From the NCBI GenBank assembly GCA_003551675.1, contig PUNG01000071.1, positions 1 to 46,284 of the forward strand: a DNA stretch of 46,284 bases, in the 5' to 3' direction. The notes under the pieces are model-generated. The model saw only the letters and a list, made by a program, of their open reading frames with translations. It searched no databases and had not been told where the DNA came from. Position 1 is the stretch's first letter, and the number at the start of each line of letters is the position of its first letter. This stretch comes from Thermoplasmata archaeon. Lineage in GTDB: Archaea; Thermoplasmatota; Thermoplasmata; Halarchaeoplasmatales; Halarchaeoplasmataceae. This document shows, piece by piece, positions 18,242-40,504 of the stretch. The translations under genes were made by a program, and so were the position numbers.

Positions 18242-18254
18242 AAAGGTGGATCGT

Positions 18255-19925: not shown

Positions 19926-19931
19926 TACCAG
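19914..19931. terminator. Hairpin across the convergent mutase/meaB junction
   Basis: CTGGTAT-ATTG-ATACCAG forms a 7-bp stem with a 4-base loop readable on both strands. It covers the mutase stop codon and ends 3 bases before the meaB stop codon, in an 8-base gap between convergent genes. Confidence 0.45.
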
Positions 19932-19933
19932 TT

Positions 19934-20872: not shown

Positions 20873-20877
20873 CAGAT

Positions 20878-21285: not shown

Positions 21286-21394
21286 ATCCAACACATCTTT
21301 TGTTAAATCGCACTCTTTATTATGAAAGGGTGAAATAAAGTTATTGGTTTTTGATGAAGATGTATCACCTTCAAAGCGATGATCCCTTTCGAAA

Positions 21395-21404
21395 CTTTTA
21401 TTTA
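21395..21404 (+). promoter_or_regulatory. TATA box of the acyl-CoA dehydrogenase / ETF operon
   Basis: CTTTTATTTA lies with its centre about 26 bases before the ATG at 21426, so the transcript is probably leaderless; no Shine-Dalgarno sequence is seen at this ATG. On the other strand, a similar box (CTTTATTTC, around 21344-21336) fits the mutase small-subunit gene. Confidence 0.5.
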
Positions 21405-21425
21405 CGTAACCTTTACTGCTCACAC

Positions 21426-22565
21426 ATGAATTTCGAATTGACGGATAATCAAAAGATGATCGAAAATATGGTAAGAGAGTTCGCTGAAAAAGAGATCGAA
21501 CCAGTAGCTGACGAGTTGGATAAAGAAAGTAAATATCCCACCGAGATATTGGAGAAGATGGCCCCCCTCGGGCTTTTGGGCATAATGATACCAGAAAAAT
21601 ATGGAGGAGCCGGTTTGGATGCCGTGAGCTTTGCCATAGTTATCGAAGAGATATCGAAGAAGTGTGCGGCTACGGGCGTTGTAACCGAGGTACACAACTC
21701 CCTGGTGAGTTGGCCCATAATAGAATACGGTACCGAGGAACAAAAAGAAAAATATCTTTCCATACTGGCTAAAGGAGAGGAGATAGGTGCCTTCGCCGGA
21801 ACCGAACCCAACGCGGGTAGCGATCTGGGGAGTATGGAGACCACTGCGGAGTTGGACGGCGACCATTACGTGATCAACGGTCAAAAGACGTTCATCACCA
21901 GCGGAAGCGAAGCCGGCGTATTGATCGTGTTCGCAAAAACGGATAAAGAAAAAGGTCACAGAGGGATCTCCGCTTTCTTGGTAGAATCGGATATGGATGG
22001 TTTCCAAGTGGGTGACATCTACGACAAGATGGGTATAAACGCGAACCACGTATCAGAATTATTCTTTGATGACATGAAAGTGCCCAAAGAGAACCTTCTA
22101 GGAGAGGAAGGAGACGGGTATAAGATAGCTCTGAGTGCTTTGGATAGAGGACGTATAGGGATAGCGGCACAAGCCATCGGTATAGCCCAGAGAGCCCTTG
22201 AAGAATCCGTAGAATACTCACAGCAGAGAGAGCAGTTCGGAAGACCCATCTCGAAGTTCCAGGCCATCCAGTGGAAGCTGGCGGATATGGCCACAAGGAT
22301 CGAAGCTGCAAGATTACTGGTTTACAGATCGGCCATGGCCGAAGATAAGGGTGGAAACGTTTCTAAGTATGCTGCCATGGCGAAGCTGTTCGCATCGGAA
22401 TTAGCCGTAGATGCAGCCAACGAAGCCATACAGATCCACGGAGGATATGGATACACCGACGAGTACGTGGTAGAGCGGCTGTATCGTGATGCGAAGATAA
22501 CGGAGATATACGAAGGTACTTCCGAGGTACAGAAGATGGTGGTCTCTAGAGACCTTTTGAGGTGA
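21426..22565 (+). CDS. Acyl-CoA dehydrogenase, short-chain (butyryl-CoA type)
   Basis: An FAD enzyme that oxidises acyl-CoA to 2-enoyl-CoA and passes electrons to ETF. The 379 residues follow the ACD family: [19 protein letters not shown] at the start, [50 protein letters not shown] and [19 protein letters not shown]. The catalytic Glu lies in IYEGTSEVQ near the C-terminus, the position used by short-chain and butyryl-CoA dehydrogenases. The start is the ATG at 21426; the track's upstream ATG would add promoter sequence. It is followed directly by etfB (TTGAGGTGA spans the stop codon and the next ribosome binding site). In this context the substrate is probably butyryl-CoA or isobutyryl-CoA. 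Confidence 0.94.
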
Positions 22566-22570
22566 AAAAC

Positions 22571-23335
22571 ATGGAGATAATAGTCTGTGCAAAGCAGATC
22601 GTTGACGTATCGGACATAAAGATAGACGATAAAACCAACGAACCGATACTGAAAGGTGTGGACGACAAGATCAGCGACATAGATAAAAACGCGGTGGAAG
22701 AAGGTATAAAGATAAAGGACGAGTTGGGAGGAAATTTGACCGTCCTTCTCGTAGGTCCTTCCGAGGCTACGGAGAACATAAAGGAACTGTTAGCCATGGG
22801 TGCCGACAGAGCGGTCATGGTGCCTTGGGACGGCTCTTCCAGTTACGACGTGGTATCGAAGATCATAGCCGGGGCGATAGAGAAGATAGGCGATCACGAC
22901 CTTATCTTGTGCGGTGAAGCGTCTTTGGACCTTTTTTCCGGACAGACGGGACCCAGGATCGCGGCCTTACTCGATCTACCCCAGATAACCTACGCCCAGA
23001 GTTTGGATGCAGAGGATGAAAAGATCGTGGGCCACAAAGACGTGGGCGGCAAAGTGGTGAGTATAGAGTCGACTTACCCCGTATTGGTTACAGTGACCAA
23101 AGAGATAAACGAACCGAGGTTACCCAGCTTGATGGACATATTGGGTGCTTCGAACAAACCCATGGACGTTTGGGATGCAGAGTCGTTAGTATCGGACGAT
23201 CTGCAGCCGGGCCTTGAGACCGTAGAGATCAAGGGAGTGCCCATGGAGAGGAAGAAGATAGTGTTCCATGACGATCTAGACGAATCTATCGAAAAGGTAG
23301 TAGAGAAACTAGCAAAAGAAGGAGTGCTGGGGTGA
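22571..23335 (+). CDS. etfB: Electron transfer flavoprotein beta subunit
   Basis: EtfB pairs with EtfA to accept electrons from acyl-CoA dehydrogenase. The N-terminal MEIIVCAKQIVDVSD, DKNAVEEGIKIKDELGG, the segment LLAMGADRAVMV and LILCGEASLDLFSGQTGPRIAALLDLP are family signatures, and the C-terminal region keeps a helical arm. Bifurcating ETFs carry a second FAD in this subunit, and the NAD-binding arrangement needed for that cannot be judged by eye. I chose the ATG at 22571, 6 bases after a GAGGTGA site, over the overlapping GTG at 22562. Length (254) is normal. It sits between the dehydrogenase and etfA, with 4 bases to etfA. Confidence 0.93.
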   Translation: MEIIVCAKQIVDVSDIKIDDKTNEPILKGVDDKISDIDKNAVEEGIKIKDELGGNLTVLLVGPSEATENIKELLAMGADRAVMVPWDGSSSYDVVSKIIAGAIEKIGDHDLILCGEASLDLFSGQTGPRIAALLDLPQITYAQSLDAEDEKIVGHKDVGGKVVSIESTYPVLVTVTKEINEPRLPSLMDILGASNKPMDVWDAESLVSDDLQPGLETVEIKGVPMERKKIVFHDDLDESIEKVVEKLAKEGVLG

Positions 23336-23339: not shown

Positions 23340-24287
23340 ATGGTTTTGGTTTACTCAGAAGATAAGGATATAACTTTGGAGTTGTTGAGCAAGGGCAGTG
23401 AACTCACCGAGAGCCTAGACGAAGAACTCTCGGCGGTGTTGATCGGAGAGGATGATCCCGACCAGTATATACGGCACGGTGCGGACAACGTGTTCGTAGT
23501 GAAAACAGATCAAGAGACCTTCAAGGCGGAGGAATACTCCGATATCTTGGTGGAGTTGATGAAAGAAGGTGAAGACGAGGTACTACTCCTGGGAGCCGAT
23601 AAAAACGGACAGGAGCTGGCCCCTAGAGTTGCATCTAAACTAGATACCGGTTGTGTATCGGAGTGTACCGCCCTATACGTTGAGAACGAAGACATCATCA
23701 CGGAAAGGGTGATCTACAGCGGAAAGGCCTTGGCCGTGGAGAGATTCGATTCGAAACCGGCTGTTGTTACGGTCCCTCCTAAATTGTTCGATCCTCTACC
23801 TGAAGACGAAGAGAGATCCGGCGAGCTCATAGAGAAAGAGATAGAGGTTTCACCCTATCCTTCGAAGATAGTAGATATAAAAGAGAAGGAGAGCGTAGGA
23901 GTGGACGTGGAAAGTGCGGAGACCATCGTTTCCTGTGGTAGAGGTTTCGACAATAAAGAAGACATCGAGATAGCCCAAGAACTGGCGAACAATTTTGAAG
24001 GGAACGCCGTAGGATGTTCTAGACCTATATCCGCGGACCTGAACTGGCTCCCTGAAGAACACTGGATCGGTTTATCGGGGCACAAAGTCAAGCCAAGATT
24101 GTATATCGCCGTGGGTATATCAGGACAGATACAACATATAGCAGGGATAAGAGACTCAGACATAATTTTAGCTATCAATAAGGACGAGGATGCGTTGATA
24201 TTCGAATCCGCCGACTACGGTATAGTGGGAGATCTTTACGAGGTACTACCCAAATTGATCGAGGCAGTGAAAGAGAAAAAGACATAA
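23340..24287 (+). CDS. etfA: Electron transfer flavoprotein alpha subunit
   Basis: EtfA holds the mobile FAD domain. The N-terminal half is divergent but keeps DEVLLLGADKNGQELAPRVASKLDTG. The C-terminal half contains the FAD-binding signature: VSCGRGFDNKEDIEIAQELAN, GCSRPISADLNWLPEEHWIGLSG, then KPRLYIAVGISGQIQHIAGI and INKDEDALIFESADYGIVGD. At 315 residues it has the usual length. No extra ferredoxin domain is fused. The operon seems to end here, since two tandem hairpins and a T-run follow the stop codon. With no ETF-quinone oxidoreductase in view, the Hdr proteins encoded downstream are plausible electron acceptors. Confidence 0.94.
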   Translation: MVLVYSEDKDITLELLSKGSELTESLDEELSAVLIGEDDPDQYIRHGADNVFVVKTDQETFKAEEYSDILVELMKEGEDEVLLLGADKNGQELAPRVASKLDTGCVSECTALYVENEDIITERVIYSGKALAVERFDSKPAVVTVPPKLFDPLPEDEERSGELIEKEIEVSPYPSKIVDIKEKESVGVDVESAETIVSCGRGFDNKEDIEIAQELANNFEGNAVGCSRPISADLNWLPEEHWIGLSGHKVKPRLYIAVGISGQIQHIAGIRDSDIILAINKDEDALIFESADYGIVGDLYEVLPKLIEAVKEKKT

Positions 24288-24430: not shown

Positions 24431-25609
24431 ATGAAAGAAGCAATAATAGTTTCCGCCGTTAGAACGGCCATAGGTAGATTCGGAGGCACTCTGAAGAACA
24501 TGCGTGCCCCTGAGCTGGGTAGCATCGCCATAGACGAGGCCGTTGGTAGAGCGGGCATAGAAAAAAAAGATGTAGACGAAGTACAGATGGGACTGGTATT
24601 GTCGGCGGGGATGGGGCAGAATCCAGCCCGTCAGGCCGCTTTGGGAGCGGACCTACCGGTAGAAGTTGGTGCGGTCACCGTTAACAAGGTCTGCGGCTCC
24701 GGTCTCAAGACCGTCATGAACGCCGCCAACAGTATCAAAGCCAACGAGTACGATACCATCGTGGCCGGAGGTATGGAAAATATGGATAAAGCGCCCTACA
24801 TCCTGAGAAAGGCGAGATATGGTTACAGGATGAACGACGGAAAATTGGTTGATGCCATGGTCTACGACGGCCTTTGGGATCACTTTAACGATTTTCATAT
24901 GGGTATAACCGGTGACAGGATAGCGGAGAGATCTGGTCTTACTAGAGAGGAGATAGATAAATTTGCGCTCAGGAGTCATCAACTGGCCAGTGAGGCCGCT
25001 GAAAAGGGGAAATTCGATGATGAGATAGTGCCTATAGAAGTACCTCAAAGAAGAGGAGATCCGATCATCTTCGACCATGACGAGGGTATCAGACCCGATT
25101 CTTCGCTGGAAAAGCTCAGCAGGTTACCACCCGCCTTCCAGAAAGATGGATATACGACTGCGGGGAACGCATCACAGATATCTGCCGGTGCCTCCGCCAC
25201 CGTCGTTATGAGTAAAGAGAAGGCGGAAGAGAAGGGCATCGAGCAGATGGCAAAGATAGTAGATTATCACACATCCGGTGTTAAACCCGAGAATGTCATG
25301 GAAGCCCCGATACCGGGTATGAAGGCGATCTTGGAAAGGAACGATCTCCATATCTCCGATCTAGACTTGGTAGAGCACAACGAGGCTTTTGCATCCGCTT
25401 CCGCAGCCGTACAGAAGGAATTCGATATACCCGACGATAAATTCAATGTGCATGGAGGAGCGGTTTCGCTGGGTCATCCCATAGGATGCAGCGGCACGAG
25501 GATACTGACGACTCTTCTCCACGCGTTGAAACAGAGAGGAGGAGGCAGAGGTCTAGCTACAGCCTGCCTCGGCGGAGGAAACGCGGTCACCATGATCGTT
25601 GAGATGTAA
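24431..25609 (+). CDS. Acetyl-CoA C-acetyltransferase (thiolase)
   Basis: The enzyme cleaves acetoacetyl-CoA to two acetyl-CoA or, in reverse, starts PHA synthesis (PhaA role). All catalytic motifs are present in 392 residues: the nucleophile Cys in NKVCGSGLKTVM (about residue 88), His in LVEHNEAFASASA and Cys in GHPIGCSGTRI near the C-terminus. MGLVLSAGMGQNPARQAALGA and GGMENMDKAPY are typical of bacterial-type biosynthetic/degradative thiolase AtoB/PhaA rather than of the archaeal mevalonate-type partner of HMG-CoA synthase. It starts a three-gene set with hbd and crotonase, and could serve both beta-oxidation and the PHA operon. Confidence 0.95.
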   Translation: MKEAIIVSAVRTAIGRFGGTLKNMRAPELGSIAIDEAVGRAGIEKKDVDEVQMGLVLSAGMGQNPARQAALGADLPVEVGAVTVNKVCGSGLKTVMNAANSIKANEYDTIVAGGMENMDKAPYILRKARYGYRMNDGKLVDAMVYDGLWDHFNDFHMGITGDRIAERSGLTREEIDKFALRSHQLASEAAEKGKFDDEIVPIEVPQRRGDPIIFDHDEGIRPDSSLEKLSRLPPAFQKDGYTTAGNASQISAGASATVVMSKEKAEEKGIEQMAKIVDYHTSGVKPENVMEAPIPGMKAILERNDLHISDLDLVEHNEAFASASAAVQKEFDIPDDKFNVHGGAVSLGHPIGCSGTRILTTLLHALKQRGGGRGLATACLGGGNAVTMIVEM

Positions 25610-25630
25610 ATGTAGAGAGGTATAGATAAG

Positions 25631-26479
25631 ATGGAAATAGAAAAGATAGGAATAATCGGCGCAGGAACGATGGGTCACGGCATAGCACAGGTTTCAGCCG
25701 CCAGTGGCTATCGAGTGATCATGAAAGACATCGAGCAGGAATTTTTGGATAACGGCATGAAGGGGATAGAGAGGTCGTTGTCTAAAGGCGTAGAAAAAGA
25801 CAGGATCTCGGAAGAAGAGAAAGAGGAGATACTGGGAAGGATCGATACCACCTTAGAGATGGAGGACCTGAGCGATTGCGACCTGATCATAGAAGCGGTT
25901 GTGGAGGAATTCGAGGTGAAGAAGCAGGTGTTCCAGGAGCTTGACGAACTGTGTGGTCCCGATACGATACTAGCCTCAAACACGTCCACCATCCCGATAA
26001 CCAAGATGGCGGGCATAGTGAACAGACCTGAAAAATTCATAGGTATGCACTTCATGAATCCCGTTCCGATAATGGCGCTTGTAGAAGTCATACGTGCTTT
26101 GACCACATCGGACGAAACCACGGATACCATAATATCATTGGCGGAGGACCTGGGGAAAAAACCTGTAGAAGTCAACGATTCACCCGGTTTTGTTTCCAAC
26201 CGCGTCTTGATCCCCATGATAAACGAGGCCGTCTACTGCCTCCAGAACGGCGTAGCAGAGGCCGAAGACATAGATAAAGTGATGAAACTGGGTATGAACC
26301 ATCCCATGGGTCCGCTGCAGTTGGGCGACTTGATCGGTCTGGATACCGTTCTCCATATAATGGAAGTGCTTTACGAAGAGTTCAACGATTCGAAGTATAG
26401 ACCGTGTCCCCTCCTAAAAAAGAAGGTTAGAGCCGGAGAGTTAGGTAGGAAGAGCGGAAAGGGATTCTACGACTATTGA
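25631..26479 (+). CDS. hbd: 3-hydroxybutyryl-CoA dehydrogenase
   Basis: This NAD(P)-dependent enzyme oxidises (S)-3-hydroxybutyryl-CoA to acetoacetyl-CoA. The 282-residue length is that of stand-alone Hbd. The Rossmann motif [12 protein letters not shown] opens the protein, followed by [12 protein letters not shown], the catalytic His in [32 protein letters not shown] and the C-terminal domain with [15 protein letters not shown] ribosome binding site (AGAGAGGTA) precedes the ATG. It lies between thiolase and crotonase. The (S)-specificity expected of this family separates it from the (R)-specific PhaB-type reductases of the PHA operon, so the two routes can run independently. Confidence 0.95.
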
Positions 26480-26494
26480 TGAGGAGTGGATAAC

Positions 26495-27262
26495 ATGGAT
26501 ATGGTCGATCTAGAAAAAAAAGAAGACCTGGCTGTGATCACTCTTAACAACCCGCCCATGAACGTTCTGTGCACCGATCTTTTAAATGAGTTAAAGAAAA
26601 CGCTCACGGAGCTTGAAGATGAAGAGGATCTAAGAGCGGTCGTGATCACGGGAAAGGGCCGAGCCTTCGTCGCCGGTGCGGATATAGACGAGATGAAAGG
26701 CATGAACAGAGAGGAAGCCGAAGGATACTGTGAACTCGGGCAGGAAGTATTGAACATGATAGACTATCTTCAAACGCCGGTGATAGCGGCGATAAACGGC
26801 TTCGCTCTGGGCGGAGGTACGGAGGTAGCCCTGGCATGTGACATCAGGATAGCTTCCACCGATGCAAAATTCGGTCAACCCGAAGTTAACTTAGGGGTTA
26901 TCCCTGGTTTTGGCGGCACTCAAAGATTGTCAAGAGCTATAGGGCCGGGAAAAGCCAAAGAACTCATATACACTGGAAAGATCATCGACGCTGAGACCGC
27001 CGGAGACATAGGTCTGGTTCAAGAAGTTGTGGACGGAGACGTGATGGACCGGTCCGTTGAATTGGCGGAAGAGATAACCAAAAAAGGCCCTCTCGCAGTG
27101 AAAAACGCCAAAAAAGCTATCAATAAGGGCAGAGATACTACACTGCTAGAAGGACTTGAGAAGGAGAAAAAAGGATTCTCCGATTTGTTCTCAACCCGGG
27201 ACCAAAAGGAAGGAATGGAAGCGTTCCTCGATAAAAGAAAGCCCGATTTCAAGGGCGAATGA
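26495..27262 (+). CDS. Enoyl-CoA hydratase (crotonase)
   Basis: Hydrates crotonyl-CoA to 3-hydroxybutyryl-CoA. The 255-residue crotonase fold is complete: LNNPPMNVLCTDLLNEL, the oxyanion-hole segment GRAFVAGADIDEM, then GFALGGGTEVALACDIRIAS and FGQPEVNLGVIPGFGGTQRL, which holds both catalytic Glu positions. The C-terminal helices (GPLAVKNAKKAINKG) are typical. A GAGGAG site supports the ATG at 26495; the track's GTG at 26486 overlaps that site. It ends the thiolase-hbd-crotonase set, 66 bases before the Hdr operon, which has its own possible TATA-like stretch (TTCTATTAAAAAG, around 27306-27318). Confidence 0.94.
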   Translation: MDMVDLEKKEDLAVITLNNPPMNVLCTDLLNELKKTLTELEDEEDLRAVVITGKGRAFVAGADIDEMKGMNREEAEGYCELGQEVLNMIDYLQTPVIAAINGFALGGGTEVALACDIRIASTDAKFGQPEVNLGVIPGFGGTQRLSRAIGPGKAKELIYTGKIIDAETAGDIGLVQEVVDGDVMDRSVELAEEITKKGPLAVKNAKKAINKGRDTTLLEGLEKEKKGFSDLFSTRDQKEGMEAFLDKRKPDFKGE

Positions 27263-27328: not shown

Positions 27329-27871
27329 ATGAAAATGAGCATAACAGACTTGACTTCCATGGCTAAGCCAGAGGAAGAAGCGAAGGAAGATATAAACGAG
27401 GTTCTTAACGGTTTGAAAGAGGATGTCCCGAGCTTTTGTTATCAGTGCGGAAAGTGTACTTCCGGCTGTGAAGCTTTTATCCTTTTGGAACTAGAGCCCA
27501 GCAAAGTGATGGCATTGGCTAAATCCGGATTCATAGAAGAATTGAAGGACTCCGACGTCATCTGGACATGCTTGACTTGCTTGAAGTGTAAAGAAAGGTG
27601 CCCACAAGACCTAGCGCCCGTTGATGTTTTGTTCGCCCTGAAAAATCTATCCGTATCCTCGGGAAAACAGATAGATTCAGGTATTTCGAACATGCTTCAA
27701 TCCGTTCTATCCTCGGGTATGATACAGAAACCCAAGGAGGTAAGGGATCACAAAAATGAGGGCGTGAACAGAGAGGATACCGGTCTGCCAGAGTGCCCAA
27801 AGCCCAGTCAGGAGGAGTTGGCGAAACTGCAGCAGACGCTCATGAAAGTGGCACAGGAGAAGTTGAGGTGA
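27329..27871 (+). CDS. hdrC: Heterodisulfide reductase subunit C-like protein (HdrC)
   Basis: HdrC relays electrons between HdrA and HdrB through two [4Fe-4S] clusters. Both motifs are complete: C37-x2-C-x2-C-x3-C47 (CYQCGKCTSGC) and C81-x2-C-x2-C-x3-C91 (CLTCLKCKERCP). The 180-residue length is that of a soluble HdrC. The C-terminal part, from about residue 110, is a linker with a helix (EELAKLQQTLMKVAQEKL) that probably docks on HdrB. It begins the nine-gene operon and is followed by hdrB after 4 bases. No membrane segment is present, so it is not the HdrE-linked type. The disulfide or other acceptor used here is unknown. Confidence 0.92.
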   Translation: MKMSITDLTSMAKPEEEAKEDINEVLNGLKEDVPSFCYQCGKCTSGCEAFILLELEPSKVMALAKSGFIEELKDSDVIWTCLTCLKCKERCPQDLAPVDVLFALKNLSVSSGKQIDSGISNMLQSVLSSGMIQKPKEVRDHKNEGVNREDTGLPECPKPSQEELAKLQQTLMKVAQEKLR

Positions 27872-27875: not shown

Positions 27876-28751
27876 ATGGAATTAGGATTATATTTAGGAT
27901 GTTTGATACCTACTGAACAGTATGCCTACGAACTCTCTATCAGAGAAGTCTTTCCCAAGTTGGGAGTAGAGTTAAAAGACATCCAGGGTCCCACGTGTTG
28001 TGGAGCTCCCCTCAGAAATATAAACATGTCTCTGACCATGTACCTATCTGCTAGAAACCTAGCTTTGGCGGAGAAACAGGACCTGGATATACTCGCTCCG
28101 TGCCCATACTGCCATCAGGCACTCACAAGAACCATGGCGGTACTGGATGAGAACCAAGAGTTGAGAGAAAAAGTGAACTCGCACCTGGCGGATGAAGATA
28201 TGAGATACCAAGGTAACGTGAAGTTGTATCATGTTTTAGACCTGCTCCACGACGTTGTAGGTGTGGAGAAGATAAAAGAAGAAGTGGAAAAACCATTGGA
28301 AGGGACCAATATAGCAGCACACTACGGCTGTCATCTGATACGACCCAACGGTTTAGAAAGGCCGGACGACTCGGAAGATCCACAGAAGATGGAGTCGCTG
28401 CTCAGAGCCATAGGTATGGACTCGGAAGATTACGTAGAAAAACTGGACTGCTGCGGTGCTCATGTGATGGTCAACGAACCCGAATCGGCCCTGACGAAAA
28501 CGGGGCAAAAGTTGGAGGCCGTCCAGGAACGTGGATTTCATGGTATGGCCACCATGTGCCCTTGGGGACAACGCATGTTCGACTCGAAACAGGAAGACGC
28601 GGCTGCCACGGTAGGTGCCTCTTTAGAGCTGCCGGTTCTGTATTACACTCAACTATTGGGGATCGCCATGGGGATCTCGCCTTCGGACCTAGGTATAGAA
28701 CTCAACTTGAGTCCTATCCATAAGATCGAACACTTAGAGGTGGAAGAATGA
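27876..28751 (+). CDS. hdrB: Heterodisulfide reductase subunit B-like protein (HdrB), one cluster cysteine missing
   Basis: HdrB normally holds two noncubane [4Fe-4S] clusters, each bound by a CX(31-39)CCX(33-36)CXXC motif, at which disulfides are reduced. The first motif is intact: C9, C41-C42, C76 and C79 (CPYC). The second has C152, C192-C193 and C228, but the last position is Gly231 (MCPWGQRMF; codon GGA at 28566-28568) instead of Cys. A single base error would not restore a Cys codon from GGA. The distal cluster may thus differ or be absent, which would change the acceptor. Length (291) is normal. The gene overlaps hdrA by 4 bases. Confidence 0.9.
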   Translation: MELGLYLGCLIPTEQYAYELSIREVFPKLGVELKDIQGPTCCGAPLRNINMSLTMYLSARNLALAEKQDLDILAPCPYCHQALTRTMAVLDENQELREKVNSHLADEDMRYQGNVKLYHVLDLLHDVVGVEKIKEEVEKPLEGTNIAAHYGCHLIRPNGLERPDDSEDPQKMESLLRAIGMDSEDYVEKLDCCGAHVMVNEPESALTKTGQKLEAVQERGFHGMATMCPWGQRMFDSKQEDAAATVGASLELPVLYYTQLLGIAMGISPSDLGIELNLSPIHKIEHLEVEE

Positions 28752-30712
28752 ACAGAGTAGGAGTATTCGTCTGTCACTGTGGAAGTAATATAGCGGATGT
28801 GGTGGATGTCGAAGAAGTCGTCGCCTACGCCCAGGGGTTAGACGGCGTGGTCGTAGCGAAGGATTACAAGTACATGTGTTCGGACCCGGGGGGAAAACTG
28901 ATAAAAGACTGTATCAAAGAACACGGATTGGACAGCGTCGTGGTGGCCTCTTGTTCACCACGTATGCACGAACCGACTTTTAGATCGGTGATCGACGATG
29001 AAGGGATGAATCCTTACTGTTTGGAGATGGCGAATATAAGGGAGCACTGTTCTTGGGTGCATAAAGGTGATGAAGAAAAGGCGACGAAGAAGGCCCAAGA
29101 GCTGGTGAACGTGGCTGTAGAGAAGGCTTTGTTTTTAGAATCATTGGAACAGTCCGAGATCGACGTGGTTCAAGAAGCGCTCGTGATAGGAGGAGGTATA
29201 GCGGGTATACAAGCTGCGTTAGATATAGCGGATCAGGGTAAAAAGGTTTACCTGGTGGAGAGGGAGCCCAGCATAGGAGGAAAGATGGCTCAACTCGATA
29301 AGACTTTCCCTACCTTAGACTGTTCTTCATGTATATTGACCCCGAAGATGATGGACGTCGCCCGTCACCCGAACATAGAACTGCTCACTTACTCTGAAGT
29401 AGAAGAGGTGGACGGCGCGGTCGGGGATTTTACGGTCAAAGTTAGAAAGAAATCGACCTACGTGGATTGGAACGAATGTACCGGCTGCGGCCTGTGTGCG
29501 GAAGCCTGCAGGATGAAAGATAAGGTACCGGATGGATTCGACATGAAATTGGGTGATAGGAGTTCTATCTATACGCCGTTCCCACAGGCGGTACCGCTGA
29601 AGTACACCATAGATCCTGAAAGCTGTATATACTTGAAAACCGGTAAGTGCGGTGAGGAGCCTCCCTGTTTAGAAGCTTGTGAAATCGGTGCCATCGACCA
29701 CGAACAGGAAGATGAGATAGTCGAGATCAACGTAGGCAGCATCATCGTAGCGACGGGATATGACCTTTTGGATCCGGACGAACTGTACGAGTACGGTTAC
29801 GGGCGGTCTGAAGACATAATCACCAATCTTGAATTCGAGAGGATAGTCGATTCTTCCGGCCCTACCGAGGGTAAGATAACCAAATTGTCCGATGGAGAAG
29901 ATATAGAGAGTATAAGTTTCATCCTATGCGTGGGATCCAGGGACGAGGAAAAACAAACTTACTGCTGTAGGATCGGGTGTATGGGTGCGCTAAAACACGC
30001 TTATCTCATAAAAGAACATATGGGCGACGAGGTGGATATCAACCTGTGTTATACAGATATACGTTCTTTCGGGAAGGGTTACGAAGAATTTTACCGCCGT
30101 ATCAGAGGGACGGACATAACTATACTTAGGGGCAGACCTTCGGAGATAAAAGTCGACCCGGACCATAAGCTCTCGTTCAACATATTCGATACGTTGACGG
30201 ATAAACTGCTCGAGATCGAATCAGATATGATAATCCTGGTTCCGGCTCTGGTCCCCAGCGAGGGGGCGGAAGAGTTGGCCCGTAAACTGAGGATCTCTCA
30301 GGGGACGGATGGATTCTTCCTGGAGGAACATCCTAAGTTGAAACCCATGGACACCGTGAAGTCAGGTGTCTTCATCGCCGGGTGCTGTCAGGGCCCGAAG
30401 GATATACCTGATACGGTAGCCCAGGCCAGCGGAGCTGCATCCCGTGCCATGGGCATACTCAACAAGAGCCGACTCGAGAACGATCCCATGATCGCTTGGG
30501 TCGATACCGATCTTTGTGTCGGGTGTGGTGTGTGCGTAGACGTATGCCCTTATTCGGCTAGAGAGCTCAACGAAGTCACGGGGATAGCGGAGGTCGACGA
30601 GATACTCTGTGCCGGCTGCGGAGCGTGTATAGCCGCATGTCCTTCCAACGCGTGCATACACAAGAACCTTACAAAAAAACAGATAATCAGGATGATAGAC
30701 GAGGTGGCTTGA
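28748..30712 (+). CDS. hdrA: Heterodisulfide reductase subunit A (HdrA), flavoprotein
   Basis: HdrA bears the bifurcating FAD and iron-sulfur clusters. The order is complete: an N-terminal domain with VFVCHCGSNI (Cys9, Cys11) and VVASCSPRMHEPTFR; the FAD motif GGGIAGIQ (148-155); the HdrA signature TLDCSSCILTPKMMDVARHPNI (192-210); a central ferredoxin (CTGCGLCAEAC, 244-254); a second Cys group (290-311); the IILCVGSRDEEKQTYC-like core; and two C-terminal [4Fe-4S] motifs (CVGCGVCVDVCP and CAGCGACIAACP). At 654 residues it is a canonical single HdrA. It overlaps hdrB, and together with hdrC and mvhD could form an ordinary HdrABC-MvhD core. The partner for the N-terminal domain is normally MvhD. 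Confidence 0.95.
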   Translation: MNRVGVFVCHCGSNIADVVDVEEVVAYAQGLDGVVVAKDYKYMCSDPGGKLIKDCIKEHGLDSVVVASCSPRMHEPTFRSVIDDEGMNPYCLEMANIREHCSWVHKGDEEKATKKAQELVNVAVEKALFLESLEQSEIDVVQEALVIGGGIAGIQAALDIADQGKKVYLVEREPSIGGKMAQLDKTFPTLDCSSCILTPKMMDVARHPNIELLTYSEVEEVDGAVGDFTVKVRKKSTYVDWNECTGCGLCAEACRMKDKVPDGFDMKLGDRSSIYTPFPQAVPLKYTIDPESCIYLKTGKCGEEPPCLEACEIGAIDHEQEDEIVEINVGSIIVATGYDLLDPDELYEYGYGRSEDIITNLEFERIVDSSGPTEGKITKLSDGEDIESISFILCVGSRDEEKQTYCCRIGCMGALKHAYLIKEHMGDEVDINLCYTDIRSFGKGYEEFYRRIRGTDITILRGRPSEIKVDPDHKLSFNIFDTLTDKLLEIESDMIILVPALVPSEGAEELARKLRISQGTDGFFLEEHPKLKPMDTVKSGVFIAGCCQGPKDIPDTVAQASGAASRAMGILNKSRLENDPMIAWVDTDLCVGCGVCVDVCPYSARELNEVTGIAEVDEILCAGCGACIAACPSNACIHKNLTKKQIIRMIDEVA

Positions 30713-30713: not shown

Positions 30714-33700
30714 ATGGCGACTACATCTAAAGAAGTGGAAAAGACCGACGTCAAAGGCTCGGTGATGGTGGTAGGCGGAGGTATCTCCGGTATACAATCA
30801 TCCATCGATCTTGCCGATTCCGGTTTTAAAGTTTATCTGGTGGATAAGGGATTGTCAATAGGTGGAAAGATGACCCAGCTGGACAAGACTTTTCCCACCA
30901 ATGACTGTTCCATGTGTATCCTCGCCCCAAAGCTTGTTAATACTGGCCGTCACAGTAATATCGATATAATAACCAATGCGGAAGTTAGATCGGTAGAGGG
31001 TGGTCCTGGAAATTTTAAAGTTGAATTGAAAAAAGCTCCCAGATTCGTTGATCCGGAGGAATGCAACGGCTGTGGAGATTGTATAGAATACTGCCCGGTG
31101 GAGATGCCTGCGGATTTCGAAGAAGGTATCGGAGATAGAAAGGCGATCTTTCAGCCCTTTCCACAGGCGGTACCCAACATATTCAGTATAGATAAAAAAG
31201 AAGAAAGGGCGCCCTGCAGGATCGAATGCCCCGCGGGGCTCAACGCTCAGGCTTTCATAACGTTGGCCGCCCAGAAAAGATATGCCGAGGCCTATAACCT
31301 CATAAAAGAACAAGTTCCACTGCCCGGTTCCATGGGTCGAGTGTGTTATCACCCCTGTGAGAACGAGTGTAACCGAAAGGATATAGACGAACCCGTTTCC
31401 ATTGCTAGGATCAGAAGGTACATCGCCGACTGGGCCTACGAAAATCCTGAAGAGGTGGAGGCCGCTTTGAGGGAACGTGAGAAAAATTATGCCGAGATCG
31501 AAGACTGGAGCGAAGCGGAGAAGAGGGGAAATCAAAGAAAGGTGGCCGTTGTAGGTGCGGGTCCTTCGGGTCTGACCGCGGCACACGATCTTTCTGAGAT
31601 GGGTTACGACGTCACCGTTTTCGAAGCTGAAGAAAATGCAGGAGGTATGCTTTACTACGGTGTTCCATCTTATAGACTTCCCAACGATTATCTAGTGAAG
31701 GAGATAGAGCAGTTGATAGAGAACGGTAACATAAAGATAGAATACGGTAAAAAGCTGGGAGAGGATTTCACAGTCGAAGATCTGGAAGAACAAGGGTTCC
31801 TTTCGGTGTATCTGGCCATAGGCTGCTGGAGATCGAAGGAGATAGAGTTCGAAAGTTGTTCTCCAGAATGCGTGGTTCAAGGTATAGATTTCTTGTACCG
31901 GGCCAACTCGGAAGATTTATCCAAAGAAGAGATAGAGGACAAAAAGGTCCTTGTGATAGGTGGAGGGAACGTGGCCATGGACTGTGCGAGGACCGCGGAG
32001 AGGTTGGGAGGAGACGTTACCGTCGTGTATAGAAGGACACAGGAACAGATGCCCGCCCACGAGGAAGAGATAGAACAGGCCAAAGAAGAGGGGGTCGACT
32101 TCGAGATATTGGCATCGCCCATGAAGATGGTGGAAGACGAGTCTTCTAGTCCCTGTCTGAAATGCCAAAAGATGGAGCTCGGCGAGCTCGACGAGAGTGG
32201 AAGAAGAAGACCCGTGGCCTTGGAAGGCGAAGTATCCGATATACCGTGTGACCTTGTTATATTTGCCATAGGCCAGGAGGTAGACAAAGATTCCCTTGAC
32301 GGTTCCGATATAGGATCGGATTGGGATACAATAAAGGCTGATCCCATCACTTATCAAACTTCATCTGAGAACGTTTTTGCCGGTGGTGATGCGGTGACAG
32401 GACCGGCTTCCGCCGTGGAGGCCATAGGGGCCGGTCACCAGGCCGCGGAATCCATAGACCGATACCTCAACAACGAGGACCTTAGAGAGGGTAGAGAACC
32501 CGTGGAAGAAGAAGGAGCGGATATACCGGATCACGTATTGAGGATACCCGAAGATAGGGAGGAGCCGGAGATCATCAGTGAAGAAAAAAGGATGAAAAGC
32601 TTCCAAGAGATGGAGAGCACCTATTCATCGGAGCAGTTGTTGAAAGAAGCGGAAAGATGCATGAGCTGTGGTGGATGCTGCGAGTGCTTCCAGTGCGTGG
32701 AACACTGCCAGAAAGCTGCCATAGACCACGAGATGGAAGAAGAAAAAGAGATCATCGAAGTCGGTTCAGTCATACTCTCTCCCGGTTCGGACACCTACGA
32801 ACCTCCAAGAGGAGACAGCCTTGGTTATGGGATCTACCCCGATGTTCTTACCAGTATCGAATTCGAAAGGATGTTATCGGCTTCGGGCCCCTTCAAAGGA
32901 CACATCAAGCGCCTCTCCGACGGAGAAGAGCCCAAGAAGATAGCGTGGCTTCAATGCGTGGGATCCAGGGATGAAAGTTGCGATCATCTTTATTGCTCGT
33001 CAGTCTGCTGTATGTATTCTATAAAGGAAGCCGTCATAGCCAAAGAGCATCTTCCAGGACTCGATACTCACATATACTTCATGGACATGAGGACCTTCGG
33101 CAAGGACTTTGAAAAGTATTATGAGAGGGCGGAGGACGAGTATGGAGTAGTCTTCCGAAGGTCTAGAGTACCACGGGTGGAGCGTAACAAAGATAGCGGC
33201 GAGCTGATAGTCAGATATATAGAGGATGATGGTACCGTGACCTCGGAATCGTACGATATGATAGTACTTTCTGTGGGTCTCCAGCCCTGTGAATCCATGA
33301 AGGATCTAGCGTCTGCGGTCGATGTTAATCTAGACGGATACGGTTTCGTAGATGTGGATCCATACTACGGTGTAGAAACTTCCAAGCCAGGCGTATACGT
33401 TTCTGGGTCCATCACCGAACCTAAAGATATACCTGAGAGTGTCATCGAAGCGTCTGCGGCTGCAGCCAAGGCTGCAAGTGATATCCGGGAGGCGAGGGGC
33501 ACCGAGGTGGTGGAAAAGGAATATCCACGAGAGAGGGACGTCAGCAACGAATTTCCAAGGACCGGCGTGTTCCTGTGTCACTGCGGTATCAATATAGGCG
33601 GTGTCATCGATATACCCGAAGTTGCCGATCACGTTAGAACGCTGCCTTATGTGGCATATGTGGATGATGAAACGTTCGCCTGTTCTCAGGACTCATTAGA

Positions 33701-35222
33701 GCGTATCAAAGAAAAGATAGAGGAACTCGGCCTCAACAGGATAGTAGTCGCCTCGTGCACCCCTAGAACCCACGAGCCTCTATTTCAGGACACTCTAAAA
33801 GAAGCAGGTCTCAACCCACACCTGTTCGAACTTGTAAACATGAGGGATCAAAACTCATGGGTACACAGAGAACATCCCGAGAGGGCCACCGAAAAGGCGA
33901 AAGAATGCGTGGCCATGGGAGTATCTAGGGTCAACGAGATGAGACCGGTGCCGCATGAAAAATTCCCAGTTATAAAGGAAGCCCTGGTGATAGGTGGAGG
34001 TTTATCAGGCATGTCGTCCGCGCTTTCTCTTGCCGATCAGGACTTCAAGGTCCATCTGGTGGAGAAAGAAGAGGAGCTCGGCGGCCTTTCCAAAGACGTT
34101 CATATAGGTCTGCGTGACGAAGATCCTCAAAGATTACTACAAGATACTATCTCTAAAACCATGGACAATCATAATATCGAGCTTTATCTGGATGCGGAGT
34201 TAGAAGAGATCGAAGGGTATGTGGGTAATTTCACATCCACCGTAAGGAACGGTGATTCTTCAGAGACCATCGAGCACGGAGTCGTTGTGGTCGCCACAGG
34301 TGCAGAAGAATATGAACCCACCACTGAATACCGTTACGACGAGAGCGACAACATAATGAGCCAAAAGGACCTGGAAAAAGATATCGCATCCGGAGCCCAT
34401 CACATCAAGGATATAGACGAAGCGGTGATGATACAGTGTGTGGGTTCCAGGAATGATGAAAATCCTTATTGTTCCAGGGTATGCTGTTCTAACGCTTTGA
34501 AGAATGCCATCAAGATCAAGGAGATGAACGAAGATGCCGCCGTTTACGTGCTGTATAGGGATATAAGGACGTACGGTTTCAAGGAAGATCTTCTTTATAA
34601 AAAAGCCAGGGATTTGGGAGTGTTCTTCATAAGGTTCCAGGAAGACCAGGAGCCGGAGGTGAGTGTGAAGGATGGAGAGATAACCGTGACCACTAAAGAC
34701 CTGATATTGCAGAGAGAGGTGGTACTCCATCCCGATAAGTTGTTTTTGAGTACGGGTATAGTCCCCAAAGATAATAACGAACTGGCCCAGCAGCTCAAAG
34801 TGCCTCTTAACGCAGATGGTTTCTATTCTGAAGCGCACATGAAACTTCGGCCGGTTGAATTCTCCGCCGACGGCATATACTTGTGCGGTTTAGCCCACAG
34901 TCCCAGGTTCATGGATGAATCCATAGCCCAGGCTCAAGGCGCCGCGGCGAAGGCGGCCACCATACTTTCCAGAGATCATCTGGAGACCTCGGGAAACATC
35001 GCGGAGGTTTCCAAAAGAAAGTGTGCCGGCTGTCAGTTGTGCGTAGGCGTATGCCCATACGAGGCCATAGAATTCCAGGAAGATGAAAGGATAGTCGTGG
35101 TGAACGAGATACTGTGCCAGGGATGCGGGGCATGTTCTGCCGTCTGTCCCAGCGGTACCGCCGAGCAGAAGTCGTTCACTAAAAAACAGATCATGTCTAT
35201 GATAGATGAATGTATTAGATAA
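30714..35222 (+). CDS. Giant fusion: HdrA interrupted by a GltD-like NADPH module, followed by a second HdrA
   Basis: One uninterrupted frame of 1502 codons. Residues 15-160: HdrA FAD domain (GGGISGIQ, DCSMCILAPKLV) and ferredoxin CNGCGDCIEYC (117-127). Residues 164-625: a GltD/dihydropyrimidine-dehydrogenase-like oxidoreductase, with an N-terminal Fer4_20-like part (Cys168, 172, 211, 215, 219), FAD motif GAGPSG (281-286), NAD(P)H motif GGGNVAMDCAR (416-426) and GGDAVTGP. Residues 626-930 resume HdrA, with the Cys-rich CMSCGGCCECFQCVEHC. Residues 945-1502: a second HdrA (VFLCHCGINI, GGGLSGMS) with two C-terminal ferredoxins but no DCSxCIL motif or central ferredoxin. I infer electron exchange between NAD(P)H and the Hdr relay. 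Confidence 0.9.
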   Translation: MATTSKEVEKTDVKGSVMVVGGGISGIQSSIDLADSGFKVYLVDKGLSIGGKMTQLDKTFPTNDCSMCILAPKLVNTGRHSNIDIITNAEVRSVEGGPGNFKVELKKAPRFVDPEECNGCGDCIEYCPVEMPADFEEGIGDRKAIFQPFPQAVPNIFSIDKKEERAPCRIECPAGLNAQAFITLAAQKRYAEAYNLIKEQVPLPGSMGRVCYHPCENECNRKDIDEPVSIARIRRYIADWAYENPEEVEAALREREKNYAEIEDWSEAEKRGNQRKVAVVGAGPSGLTAAHDLSEMGYDVTVFEAEENAGGMLYYGVPSYRLPNDYLVKEIEQLIENGNIKIEYGKKLGEDFTVEDLEEQGFLSVYLAIGCWRSKEIEFESCSPECVVQGIDFLYRANSEDLSKEEIEDKKVLVIGGGNVAMDCARTAERLGGDVTVVYRRTQEQMPAHEEEIEQAKEEGVDFEILASPMKMVEDESSSPCLKCQKMELGELDESGRRRPVALEGEVSDIPCDLVIFAIGQEVDKDSLDGSDIGSDWDTIKADPITYQTSSENVFAGGDAVTGPASAVEAIGAGHQAAESIDRYLNNEDLREGREPVEEEGADIPDHVLRIPEDREEPEIISEEKRMKSFQEMESTYSSEQLLKEAERCMSCGGCCECFQCVEHCQKAAIDHEMEEEKEIIEVGSVILSPGSDTYEPPRGDSLGYGIYPDVLTSIEFERMLSASGPFKGHIKRLSDGEEPKKIAWLQCVGSRDESCDHLYCSSVCCMYSIKEAVIAKEHLPGLDTHIYFMDMRTFGKDFEKYYERAEDEYGVVFRRSRVPRVERNKDSGELIVRYIEDDGTVTSESYDMIVLSVGLQPCESMKDLASAVDVNLDGYGFVDVDPYYGVETSKPGVYVSGSITEPKDIPESVIEASAAAAKAASDIREARGTEVVEKEYPRERDVSNEFPRTGVFLCHCGINIGGVIDIPEVADHVRTLPYVAYVDDETFACSQDSLERIKEKIEELGLNRIVVASCTPRTHEPLFQDTLKEAGLNPHLFELVNMRDQNSWVHREHPERATEKAKECVAMGVSRVNEMRPVPHEKFPVIKEALVIGGGLSGMSSALSLADQDFKVHLVEKEEELGGLSKDVHIGLRDEDPQRLLQDTISKTMDNHNIELYLDAELEEIEGYVGNFTSTVRNGDSSETIEHGVVVVATGAEEYEPTTEYRYDESDNIMSQKDLEKDIASGAHHIKDIDEAVMIQCVGSRNDENPYCSRVCCSNALKNAIKIKEMNEDAAVYVLYRDIRTYGFKEDLLYKKARDLGVFFIRFQEDQEPEVSVKDGEITVTTKDLILQREVVLHPDKLFLSTGIVPKDNNELAQQLKVPLNADGFYSEAHMKLRPVEFSADGIYLCGLAHSPRFMDESIAQAQGAAAKAATILSRDHLETSGNIAEVSKRKCAGCQLCVGVCPYEAIEFQEDERIVVVNEILCQGCGACSAVCPSGTAEQKSFTKKQIMSMIDECIR

Positions 35223-35233: not shown

Positions 35234-35680
35234 ATGAGCGAAGAAGTTGAGAATGCGGACGAAGAATTCGAACCCAAGATAGTCGGACTCTTATGTAATT
35301 GGTGCTCCTATGCGGGGGCCGATCTAGCGGGTACCAGTCGTATACAGTACCCTCCTAACATAAGGGTTATCCGAGTGATGTGCTCTGGTTCCGTGGATCC
35401 GGTATATATCAACAGGGCACTCTTGGATGGTGCCGACGCAATCCTTATAGGAGGATGCCACCCCGGAGACTGTCACTACATTGACGGTAATTACAAGGCT
35501 AGGCGTAAGATGGCTTTACTCAAGAACATACTTACGACCCTTGGGATGGAACCGGATAGGATATGGTTGAAGTGGATCTCCGCTTCGGAAGGCCAGGAGT
35601 TCGCCGATACGGTCCAGGAGATAGTGGAAGAAACGAAAAAGATGGGGCCCAACCCCATGAAGGAGAGATGGAATCTTTAA
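35234..35680 (+). CDS. mvhD: MvhD-type [2Fe-2S] electron-transfer subunit (copy 1)
   Basis: MvhD links the MvhAG hydrogenase, or another dehydrogenase, to HdrA by a [2Fe-2S] cluster. The family core is present: LCNWCSYAGADLAGTSR (with CxxC), VIRVMCSGSVDP, GADAILIGGCHPGDCHY and ISASEGQEFADTV; the four to five conserved Cys are in place. The 148-residue length is usual. It follows the giant HdrA fusion after 11 bases, with a GGAGTG site. A second copy lies at 40501-40911 behind the other HdrA fusion, so each fusion has its own MvhD. The match to the hydrogenase genes mvhAG at 42891-45322 is by context. Confidence 0.95.
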   Translation: MSEEVENADEEFEPKIVGLLCNWCSYAGADLAGTSRIQYPPNIRVIRVMCSGSVDPVYINRALLDGADAILIGGCHPGDCHYIDGNYKARRKMALLKNILTTLGMEPDRIWLKWISASEGQEFADTVQEIVEETKKMGPNPMKERWNL

Positions 35681-35691
35681 GAGGTGTTAAG

Positions 35692-36783
35692 ATGATATAT
35701 GAACTAAAAGTAGAGGAAGATGCCCCGATGACGGTTAACAACTTTTTGAAAGAACTCCTGACCGAAGGTGAAGTGGATGCGGTCATAGCCATGACGGAGA
35801 CGCCTTCGGGCAAGTCCGCTTTTCCCACCATGATATCCCATCCTGAAAAACTCTCAACCAATGTTTTCGCTCCCCTACTTCCCGTATCGACGGGGACGGT
35901 GGTCTCAAAAGTGACCAAGGTAAAACCTCCAAAAAAGACCCTTGCCGTGGTTCTTCGCTCCTGCGAACTCAGGGCTTTGACGGAGTTGGTCAAACTGAAT
36001 CAAGCCGACCTTGAAAATATCATACTTATAGGAGTGGACTGTTCCGGGACCCTTTCCATGGATACCTATCAGGGCCAGGACCAAGATATAACGGAGGCCG
36101 TTCTGAAGAACGAAAGTGAAGACGATCTAAGGACGGCTTGCCTTAACTGCAAAGACCCGGTACCGAAAAATGCCGACCTGGTCATCGGTACCTTTGGAGC
36201 CGATACGGACAAAAATTTATTTTTGGATGCGAAGACGGAGAAAGGAGCCGAGATAGTTTCCGCTCTTGGGATGGACGAAAGCGAAGGAGAGGAAGTAAGA
36301 GAGAAAGCGGTTCAAGATATTAGGGATGAAAAAGAGGAGAACAGGAAAGCCTTCATACAAGAGAGATCGGAAATAGAAGGGCCCGATAAGTTACTGGAAT
36401 TCTTCGATACCTGTGTGAATTGCCACAACTGCATGAAGGTCTGTCCGGTCTGCTACTGTAACGAGTGTATATTCGAGAGTTCGATATTCGATCTAGAAGG
36501 CGATAAGTACATGAAAAAAGTAGAGGGTAAAGGAGCGTACAAAACACCGACTGACTCATTATTGTTTCAACTGACGAGGTTCAATCACATGATGCTCTCA
36601 TGTGTGGGATGTGGACTCTGCGAGCAGGCCTGTCCATCCGACATACCTCTCATGGATGTGATCACCGGCTTAGCCGATAATGCACAGGAGTTGTTCGAAT
36701 ACGAACCCGGTGATGATCCAGAAGAAGAACTGCCTCTCGTGGTGTATCGTGAGGAAGAATTCGAAGATGTGGAGGAAAGATAG
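35692..36783 (+). CDS. FrhB/FdhB-like flavo-iron-sulfur protein with two C-terminal [4Fe-4S] motifs
   Basis: The N-terminal 250 residues resemble the beta subunit family of F420-dependent hydrogenase and formate dehydrogenase (FrhB/FdhB), seen in TLAVVLRSCELRALTELVKLNQADL, IILIGVDCSGTLS and CLNCKDPVPKNADLVIG. Such proteins bind FAD and pass electrons to or from F420. In FrhB the ferredoxin domain is at the N-terminus; here two motifs sit at the C-terminus (CVNCHNCMKVCPVCYC near residue 255 and CVGCGLCEQACPSDIP near 315), like the related proteins found beside HdrA in other anaerobes. F420 as substrate is an inference. I chose the ATG at 35692 behind GAGGTG; the track's start lies within mvhD. 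It abuts the tandem HdrC gene. Confidence 0.8.
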   Translation: MIYELKVEEDAPMTVNNFLKELLTEGEVDAVIAMTETPSGKSAFPTMISHPEKLSTNVFAPLLPVSTGTVVSKVTKVKPPKKTLAVVLRSCELRALTELVKLNQADLENIILIGVDCSGTLSMDTYQGQDQDITEAVLKNESEDDLRTACLNCKDPVPKNADLVIGTFGADTDKNLFLDAKTEKGAEIVSALGMDESEGEEVREKAVQDIRDEKEENRKAFIQERSEIEGPDKLLEFFDTCVNCHNCMKVCPVCYCNECIFESSIFDLEGDKYMKKVEGKGAYKTPTDSLLFQLTRFNHMMLSCVGCGLCEQACPSDIPLMDVITGLADNAQELFEYEPGDDPEEELPLVVYREEEFEDVEER

Positions 36784-37461
36784 ATGGAAGCCATAGACAC
36801 GAAAGAACTCGATTCGAATTTCAAGTTCGAGATAGCGGAGCAGGAAGGAGGAGAAGGCATACTGAAGTGCTTCGCCTGTGGAAGTTGTACCGCCAGGTGC
36901 CCTGAGATGGACGTGGATGAGGCATGGAATGCGAGAAACGTGATAAGAAAGGCACTGCTGGGTCTTAGAGAAGAGGTTCTTTCGTCGGAGTTCATATGGA
37001 TATGTTCGTCACATCATCGCTGTCTCGAAAAGTGCCCCCAGGAAGTTGACGTCAAGGGACTCATGAATCAGATAAGGGATGAGCGTTTGAAGGACGAGAT
37101 GATAGAAGATAAAACCGGTAAAAAGTTAAAGAAAAGTATGGATCCATCGTTCAAGTACGAGCTTGCCGAGACGGAACAGGGAGAGGGTATCTACAGCTGT
37201 TTCTCGTGCGGAACATGTACCGCCGGGTGTCCGGAAAGGGAGTTGGATCCTCTTTATTCGCCCAGAAAGGTGATCAAAACTACACTGCTGGGTATGAAAG
37301 ATAAAGTATATTCTAACAAGTTCGTGGAGATCTGTTCGACCCATAATCGATGTTTCGAACAGTGCCCGCAAGGGGTGGAGATACCGAAGCTCATGTACGC
37401 GATAAGAGAGATAGCTGTTGATGAAGGATATTCAAAGGAGGATCACGAAGATGTCCGATGA
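36784..37461 (+). CDS. Tandem HdrC-HdrC protein with His in one cluster motif of each repeat
   Basis: Two HdrC-like domains repeat with a period of 110 residues (FKFEIAEQEGGEG, then FKYELAETEQGEG). Each has one full [4Fe-4S] motif (C29-x2-C-x2-C-x3-C39, and C139 to C149) and one altered motif in which the second Cys is His: C74-SSH-HRC-LEKCP and C184-STH-NRC-FEQCP. The same change in both copies implies it is functional rather than decay; His ligation of a [4Fe-4S] cluster is known in [NiFe] hydrogenases. A single cluster shift would change the redox potential. The gene starts directly after the FrhB-like stop codon and overlaps the HdrA-HdrA gene by 11 bases. Confidence 0.9.
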   Translation: MEAIDTKELDSNFKFEIAEQEGGEGILKCFACGSCTARCPEMDVDEAWNARNVIRKALLGLREEVLSSEFIWICSSHHRCLEKCPQEVDVKGLMNQIRDERLKDEMIEDKTGKKLKKSMDPSFKYELAETEQGEGIYSCFSCGTCTAGCPERELDPLYSPRKVIKTTLLGMKDKVYSNKFVEICSTHNRCFEQCPQGVEIPKLMYAIREIAVDEGYSKEDHEDVR

Positions 37462-40400: not shown

Positions 40401-40504
40401 CCGCCTGCCCTTCGGGAGCCATAGAACAAAAAGGTTTCAAAGACGGACAGATACTCGCCATGATCGAAGCTTTAGGTGCCTGTGCAAAGGAGGCGAGCAG
40501 ATGA
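37451..40504 (+). CDS. HdrA-HdrA fusion protein
   Basis: The 1017 residues hold two HdrA units. Unit 1: FAD motif GAGIAG (14-19), NDCSMCILSPKLVDCSRHPNI, ferredoxin CTSCGNCEEIC (110-120), then CVDCGKCTEVC (163-173) and the CSSMCCMYTTKEA core. Unit 2: VFVCNCGINI (459-468), VVAACTPRTHEPLFR, FAD motif GGGVAGMT (600-607) and two C-terminal ferredoxins (CSDCKTCISVCP, CQGCGTCVAACP). Unit 2 lacks the DCSxCIL motif and central ferredoxin, so the halves are asymmetric. It has the same plan as the 1502-residue protein minus the GltD module. The ATG at 37451, with AAAGGAGGA upstream, replaces the track's earlier start. It overlaps mvhD copy 2 by 4 bases. Confidence 0.92.
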   Translation: MSDEKTTGAVAVVGAGIAGVQSALDLADIGFKVYLVEKSPTIGGVMAMLDKTFPTNDCSMCILSPKLVDCSRHPNIEIMAQSQVKDIEGKAGDFKVKVLQEPRYVDIERCTSCGNCEEICPIEIPSEFEQGLVMRKAAYKPYPQAIPNAYVVDKKGAPGYNGCVDCGKCTEVCKTEAISHEQEEKEVTLDVGAVIFAFGSAPFDPKIKKELGYDRFPNVITSLEFERILSASGPYEGEILRPGDKEHAKKIAWIQCVGSRDRNIDQEFCSSMCCMYTTKEAIIAKEHESDIDATIFYIDVRSFGKDFDRYIERAKEEHDIRYVRSRISEIFEKRSGDLTINYEDIGGDYHEETFDMVVLSIGLCMKSDRSKVLKDMGVEVSEFGFPLSDPREPVKLVKPGMFMAGSVVEPQAIPESVMQASAAAGQAAALLKDSKGTLVEPLPEHPQKDVSSEEPRIGVFVCNCGINIANYVKVPSVVEFAEGLDDVEYAEQNLYTCSEDAQERIVDIIKKEGLNRVVVAACTPRTHEPLFRSCLEEAGLNPHLLEMTNIREHCSWVHLDDEKATEKAEELISMSVAKSRLLEQITKTKIDIDQSAMVIGGGVAGMTSALSLAEQGYETLLVEKEDELGGKLNEIRYTFDDMNAEEFVSDLGSRVMEHENIEVRSGTFIDDISGHVGNYEVTLSNDEEHVVGAVIVATGSREHVPSSYHYHEDQRVMTQLELEEELSTLSEEDIAEGETFVMIQCVESREDDRDYCSRVCCMNALKNALKIKELNPRSEVYILYRDMMTYGFFEKYYKEAREKGVLFIQYEVDEKPEIELGEKMTVKLHEPMIQEDIEIDADRLILSSGMDPQEGTREITKQLKVPVNQDGFFLEAHVKLRPVDFSTKGVFLAGSCHSPKFISESIYQAQAAAARAATILSEPELEAEANIAVVDEGLCSDCKTCISVCPYNAIESVEEMIDDFEEKHAEISEGLCQGCGTCVAACPSGAIEQKGFKDGQILAMIEALGACAKEASR

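Follow-up and report, generated by a model that had tools for sequence, protein, structure and literature searches.

Glycine replaces the displaceable cysteine of the distal noncubane cluster in an HdrB subfamily of non-methanogenic Thermoplasmata relatives (Thermoplasmatota)

On the evidence of aligned sequences, we show that in an HdrB subfamily of non-methanogenic Thermoplasmatota, a selected glycine has taken over the position of the cysteine that bridges the distal noncubane cluster. One member is encoded in a 46,284-nucleotide stretch of DNA from a Thermoplasmata archaeon (contig PUNG01000071.1; hereafter the window), and its glycine, Gly231, is not peculiar to that protein but, as the alignments indicate, marks the whole subfamily and is found again in sHdrB2, a subunit of the archaeal sulfur-oxidising Hdr-like (sHdr) system. 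We propose, with a probability that we put slightly below one half (about 0.48), that the selected glycine leaves the distal cluster open, that the protein does not reduce CoM-S-S-CoB, and that HdrB serves as the EtfAB contact of an HdrABC-type complex.

The HdrB-type subunit (positions 27876..28751, + strand, as are all features of its operon described below) is a 291-residue protein with two CCG domains, recognized by PF02754 in two stretches with 77.2 bits against a gathering score of 20.6. Its AlphaFold2 model (mean pLDDT 95.2) has the HdrB fold, the closest structure being 5odc_B (TM-score 0.91), and superposes on 7bkb_B with a query-normalised TM-score of 0.93. Against TIGR03288, the family of methanogen HdrB, it scores 232.7 bits and thus falls below the curated cut-off of 345.15, and it carries nine of the ten cysteines that make up two complete C-x-CC-x-CxxC motifs, the motif residues being C9, C41, C42, C76 and C79 in the first and C152, C192, C193, C228 and Gly231 in the second. 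The first motif ends in an intact C76-P-Y-C79 (28101..28112), where C79 corresponds to Cys81, the pseudo-symmetric counterpart of the bridging Cys234, and is complete, as the earlier note on this DNA had read it. The second ends in C228-P-W-G231 (28557..28568; TGC CCT TGG GGA), which the HMMER alignment places opposite CPFC of Methanothermococcus thermolithotrophicus HdrB (5odc_B), so that Gly231, encoded by GGA at 28566-28568, sits where the bridging Cys234 is found; the loss of the last cysteine of this motif, likewise claimed in that note, is therefore confirmed by both the open reading frame and the alignment. By motif reading, the distal-cluster ligands C152 (28329..28331) and C192-C193 (28449..28454) are kept.

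In each noncubane cluster of HdrB, a bridging cysteine (Cys81 or Cys234) coordinates the catalytic iron and is displaced once a ligand or substrate is present (PMC13083937, a 2026 paper on EtfD). Because Gly231 aligns with Cys234, what the protein has lost is the ligand that moves at the distal site and not merely one of five. Since that ligand is displaceable, the remaining four distal cysteines (C152, C192, C193 and C228), all of which are present, may be enough to hold the cluster. The earlier proposal of an altered distal site thus holds in that a motif cysteine is truly missing, and is sharpened in that the missing residue is the bridging cysteine rather than a generic ligand. Most likely, to judge from published structural work, the noncubane [4Fe-4S] cluster at the distal site would still assemble on the four remaining cysteines, while the protein would be unable to close the catalytic iron and the distal site would stay permanently open.

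Glycine occupies position 231 in all 12 aligned members of the subfamily, and the codons GGA, GGG, GGC and GGT are all in use, which argues that the residue is maintained at the protein level. CPWG is found in all members of the window's HdrB family, and more distant Thermoplasmatota carry CPWG, CPLG or CPYG; the sister HdrB subfamily has cysteine in 23 of 23 aligned members. The same change appears in many independent metagenome-assembled genomes, in line with the earlier dismissal of a sequencing error, and we consider the chance that Gly231 stems from sequencing or assembly virtually nil. The accompanying argument that two changes separate the codon from cysteine is correct for GGA and does not extend to the GGT and GGC of relatives, which are one step from TGT and TGC. 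In the tree, the Gly-type HdrBs lie in one region, and a single clade that includes the outlying L165 is compatible with the data (AU p = 0.785), and shared descent is the simplest reading. Conceivably, constraint was merely relaxed, with the distal cluster degenerate or lost and Gly231 devoid of a function of its own, as the fifth cysteine is displaced anyway when substrate is bound (PMC13083937) and its loss could be tolerated; however, the remaining distal cysteines never vary within the subfamily, glycine is preserved through all four of its codons and no other residue is accepted, all of which makes this explanation very improbable.

We further searched for a residue that might take over from the lost cysteine. 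A new cysteine can be rejected as substitute ligand, as the protein holds nine cysteines in total, every one of them in the motifs. Eight alignment columns separate Gly-type from Cys-type HdrBs (4, 11, 44, 96, 118, 121, 231 and 247), and at none of them do the Gly-type proteins share a new Cys, His, Asp or Glu, the gain at column 118 being Tyr in 11 of 12 members and Phe in one. The earlier note had named a nearby replacing ligand shared by all close homologues as the finding that would speak against it, and the sequences of the Gly subfamily show no newly conserved residue of this kind, whether Cys, His, Asp or Glu. A conserved new His, Asp or Glu near the site is rejected on the same grounds, and HdrC, water or the substrate may supply a ligand. 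Closure of the cluster by another ligand, be it Tyr78, His196, an HdrC side chain or water, would turn the site into a non-catalytic relay, similar to EtfD cluster D2 with its His583. Such a relay has a precedent in EtfD, where a CCG cluster is closed by a non-cysteine ligand and is non-catalytic (PMC13083937), and by our own motif reading Tyr78 of the window protein falls at the place of His583, with His196 located beside CCG. Yet in Gly-type proteins position 78 can be Y, I, Q, L, N or G and position 196 H, Q, P or G, with no ligand side chain newly conserved, and we therefore regard a closed relay as improbable.

To place the substitution in a broader context, we compiled 218 distinct HdrB-type proteins into a census, mostly from Thermoplasmatota with some from Bathyarchaeota, Asgard archaea and bacteria. 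Position 231 is cysteine in 188 of them, glycine in 27 and a gap in 3, and position 79 is glycine in 3; no other substitution is found at either position in the census, and the other eight motif cysteines are retained in every one of the 215-218 proteins covering each. The tree requires position 231 to have changed three times (twice if the Gly-type HdrBs form one clade) and position 79 twice, and glycine at a bridging position has arisen on at least four lineages; for four or five events spread evenly over ten sites, the probability that all fall on these two is about 0.0016 to 0.0003. The independent cases comprise the window subfamily, sHdrB2, a paralogue in AUK212 (L046) with glycine at both bridging positions and an intact copy adjoining it, and the HdrBs of two Deltaproteobacteria (L112, 2725-3579; L113, 4247-5101), in which the first motif reads CKCG, with glycine at its bridging position. 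The latter HdrBs lie beside a 585-residue HdrC-like protein and an HdrA-GltD-like protein. Among sHdrB2-type sequences from Thermoplasmatota, all 13 that were found have glycine (CPLG) at the position of residue 231, and one of them, in a Thermoplasmata genome (L230, 2923-10338), belongs to a full hdrC1-B1-A-hyp-C2-B2 cluster with GcvH-like LbpA, DsrE and the lipoate ligase LplA; a plasmid search for sHdrB2 relatives returned two distant matches. It is possible, if tentative, that evolution has used the two bridging cysteines as a switch across the HdrB/CCG superfamily, in which glycine would lock a cluster open and reassign HdrB from CoM-S-S-CoB to another partner, such as ETF in beta-oxidation or a sulfur carrier in sHdr, one Thermoplasmatota paralogue having changed at both sites. 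Neither the fold nor the operon type is new, and CCG variation as such is known; no description of glycine at the bridging cysteine or of a two-site rule was found in the openly searchable literature, and an earlier mention in subscription papers is possible.

In its operon, HdrB is preceded by genes of beta-oxidation: an acyl-CoA dehydrogenase (21351..22565, the true start of which may lie further in), EtfB (22562..23335), EtfA (23340..24287) and a thiolase, a 3-hydroxyacyl-CoA dehydrogenase and an enoyl-CoA hydratase (24431..27262). Immediately upstream lies HdrC with two [4Fe-4S] motifs (27329..27871), and downstream follow a 654-residue HdrA (28748..30712; 838.7 bits to NCBIfam HdrA2, under the curated cut-off), a 1502-residue fusion of HdrA, a GltD/NfnB-like NAD(P)-binding module and HdrA (30714..35222), MvhD/FlpD (35234..35680), an F420-type oxidoreductase with an FrhB/FdhB C-terminal domain and 4Fe-4S motifs (35563..36783), an HdrC-like protein with two 4Fe-4S dicluster domains (36784..37461), a third HdrA-like protein of 1028 residues (37418..40504) and a second FlpD/MvhD (40282..40911), after which come an acetyl-CoA synthetase-like protein and, on the opposite strand, a NiFe hydrogenase. 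HdrA and HdrC thus adjoin HdrB together with MvhD/hydrogenase or FdhB partners, as is typical of HdrABC-type complexes, and bifurcation or confurcation of the HdrABC type is predicted from this gene content. Counting the fusion, the separate HdrA and the third HdrA, the complex could contain as many as four HdrA modules, and it would offer entry points of the NAD(P)H type as well as the F420 type.

Adjoining the beta-oxidation genes is a group encoding a corrinoid adenosyltransferase, methylmalonyl-CoA mutase, MeaB and a B12-binding domain protein (17672-21423), which suggests odd-chain or propionyl-CoA metabolism. The window genome, 93.9% complete, is of the Candidatus Halarchaeoplasmatales kind (Thermoplasmata of saline and soda lakes), with Candidatus Haladaptatiplasma halalkaliphilum among its named nearest relatives. 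A second Hdr cluster on another contig of the same genome (C147; L234, 7507-14776) encodes HdrA-like, MvhD, NiFe hydrogenase, HdrC-like, HdrB-like, FrdB-like and FrdA-like (FAD_binding_2) proteins, the HdrB-like protein having all ten cysteines, and looks like a hydrogenase-Hdr-fumarate reductase complex.

McrA is absent from the window genome, as from the 14 other Gly-carrying genomes tested, and was detected in four of four methanogens of the same class used as controls. CoM-S-S-CoB is therefore unlikely as a substrate, and the earlier suggestion that the acceptor may not be the heterodisulfide gains support to the point where we consider that acceptor very unlikely; that the window HdrB does not reduce CoM-S-S-CoB is thus a supported conclusion. 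As the comparison took in Gly-carrying genomes and methanogen controls only, the absence of McrA argues against CoM-S-S-CoB but leaves the glycine itself unexplained.

A candidate partner emerges from gene neighborhoods. ETF genes lie near most of the Gly-type HdrBs, in five lineages represented by the window and its family, L050, L077/L080, L046/L274 (AUK212) and L227, and in L227 only 69 bases separate ETF from HdrB. In AUK212 (L046, 2861-10840; L274), the order is EtfB-EtfA-four complex I-type genes-HdrA-HdrC-HdrB, the complex I-type genes encoding 20, 30 and 49 kDa subunits and a ferredoxin and being followed by HdrA-FlpD and HdrC; the double-glycine HdrB stands directly before a second HdrC-HdrB pair with all cysteines. 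L050 additionally encodes, beside its ACAD-EtfBA-HdrCB-HdrA operon, a 673-residue protein that resembles two tandem HdrD-type units with four CCG domains (12721-14739). None of the 17 loci of the Cys-type sister subfamily that offer at least 5.6 kb of upstream sequence has ETF nearby. Cys-type HdrBs adjoining ETF do exist, namely at L061 in the sister subfamily and at the more distant L076 and L085, and the Gly branch of L059/L062 has no ETF in view. By locus count, the association of glycine with ETF reaches Fisher p = 1.8e-4, a value that ignores descent, and as independent pairs provide one or two contrasts, the link is close to a single evolutionary event; we take it as a lead and not as proof.

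In the literature, EtfD, itself a CCG protein, receives electrons from ETF (PMC13083937), and in sulfur oxidisers, linkage to EtfBA is described for the Hdr-like loci of group III (PMC6067878). From gene linkage, we infer that ETF could be the electron donor to the window HdrB. Based on gene order and the EtfD precedent, HdrB would form the contact between an HdrABC-type complex and the EtfAB/acyl-CoA dehydrogenase system of beta-oxidation, with electrons passing from acyl-CoA through ETF and the HdrB clusters to HdrC and the HdrA flavin. There, ETF-derived and ferredoxin electrons would be combined to yield H2, NAD(P)H or F420H2, a confurcation predicted from the presence of HdrA, GltD, FrhB and hydrogenase parts. 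Two observations count against a role of HdrB as ETF contact: the nearest solved relatives of the window EtfAB are bifurcating ETFs, and an ETF of this type may bifurcate with NADH independently of Hdr; and the proximal cluster of the window HdrB has its full set of five cysteines, like that of an active disulfide reductase, and is equally suited to a disulfide or persulfide reaction.

The intact proximal motif also favors the main alternative, namely that the protein is a disulfide, persulfide or sulfane-sulfur oxidoreductase with a substrate other than CoM-S-S-CoB, in which glycine would open the distal site to a different thiol or to protein-bound sulfur, as in sHdrB2. The glycine shared by all 13 sHdrB2-type Thermoplasmatota sequences, including the one in the complete L230 cluster, speaks for it as well. 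However, the arrangement that marks sHdr loci, hdrC1B1A-hyp-hdrC2B2 with lbpA, is not that of the window, where no GcvH-like LbpA, DsrE or LplA is found among the annotated operon genes and the operon is one of beta-oxidation, and we consider a sulfur substrate less likely than a role as EtfAB contact. Under the preferred reading of HdrB as the EtfAB contact, the ETF link, if it holds, would mark an entry point for fatty-acid electrons into archaeal HdrABC complexes. The Gly-type proteins are in addition natural mutants of the switch model that lack the bridging cysteine at the distal site (the subfamily), at the proximal site or at both, and thus allow its direct test, and they provide a sequence rule for spotting HdrB-like proteins of non-methanogens that likely use another partner.

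Among known systems, HdrB of the methanogen HdrABC-MvhAGD complex (5ODC) shares with the window protein its fold, two CCG motifs, HdrC and HdrA partners and an intact proximal motif, but differs in having Cys234 where the window protein has Gly231, the two being about 35% identical and the window genome lacking McrA. The sister Thermoplasmatota HdrBs (CPWC; L042-L071) are closer, with 52-59% identity and the same HdrC-HdrB-HdrA order, but keep the cysteine, frequently neighbor a hydrogenase and adjoin ETF at L061 only. sHdrB2, encoded in hdrC1B1A-hyp-hdrC2B2, has glycine at the corresponding cysteine and an EtfBA linkage in group III loci (PMC6067878), but belongs to a distant subfamily in which the glycine probably originated separately. 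Finally, Mycobacterium smegmatis EtfD (EMO; 9OJN), which the window HdrB model matches in Foldseek with E = 9e-7, likewise combines HdrB-like CCG domains with altered cluster ligands and takes ETF electrons in beta-oxidation (PMC13083937); its changes, however, are a threonine for one cysteine of a CC pair and the added His583, rather than glycine for the last cysteine of CxxC, and it is a single membrane protein, whereas the 291-residue window HdrB consists of CCG domains only, with no fused membrane-embedded cytochrome b domain.
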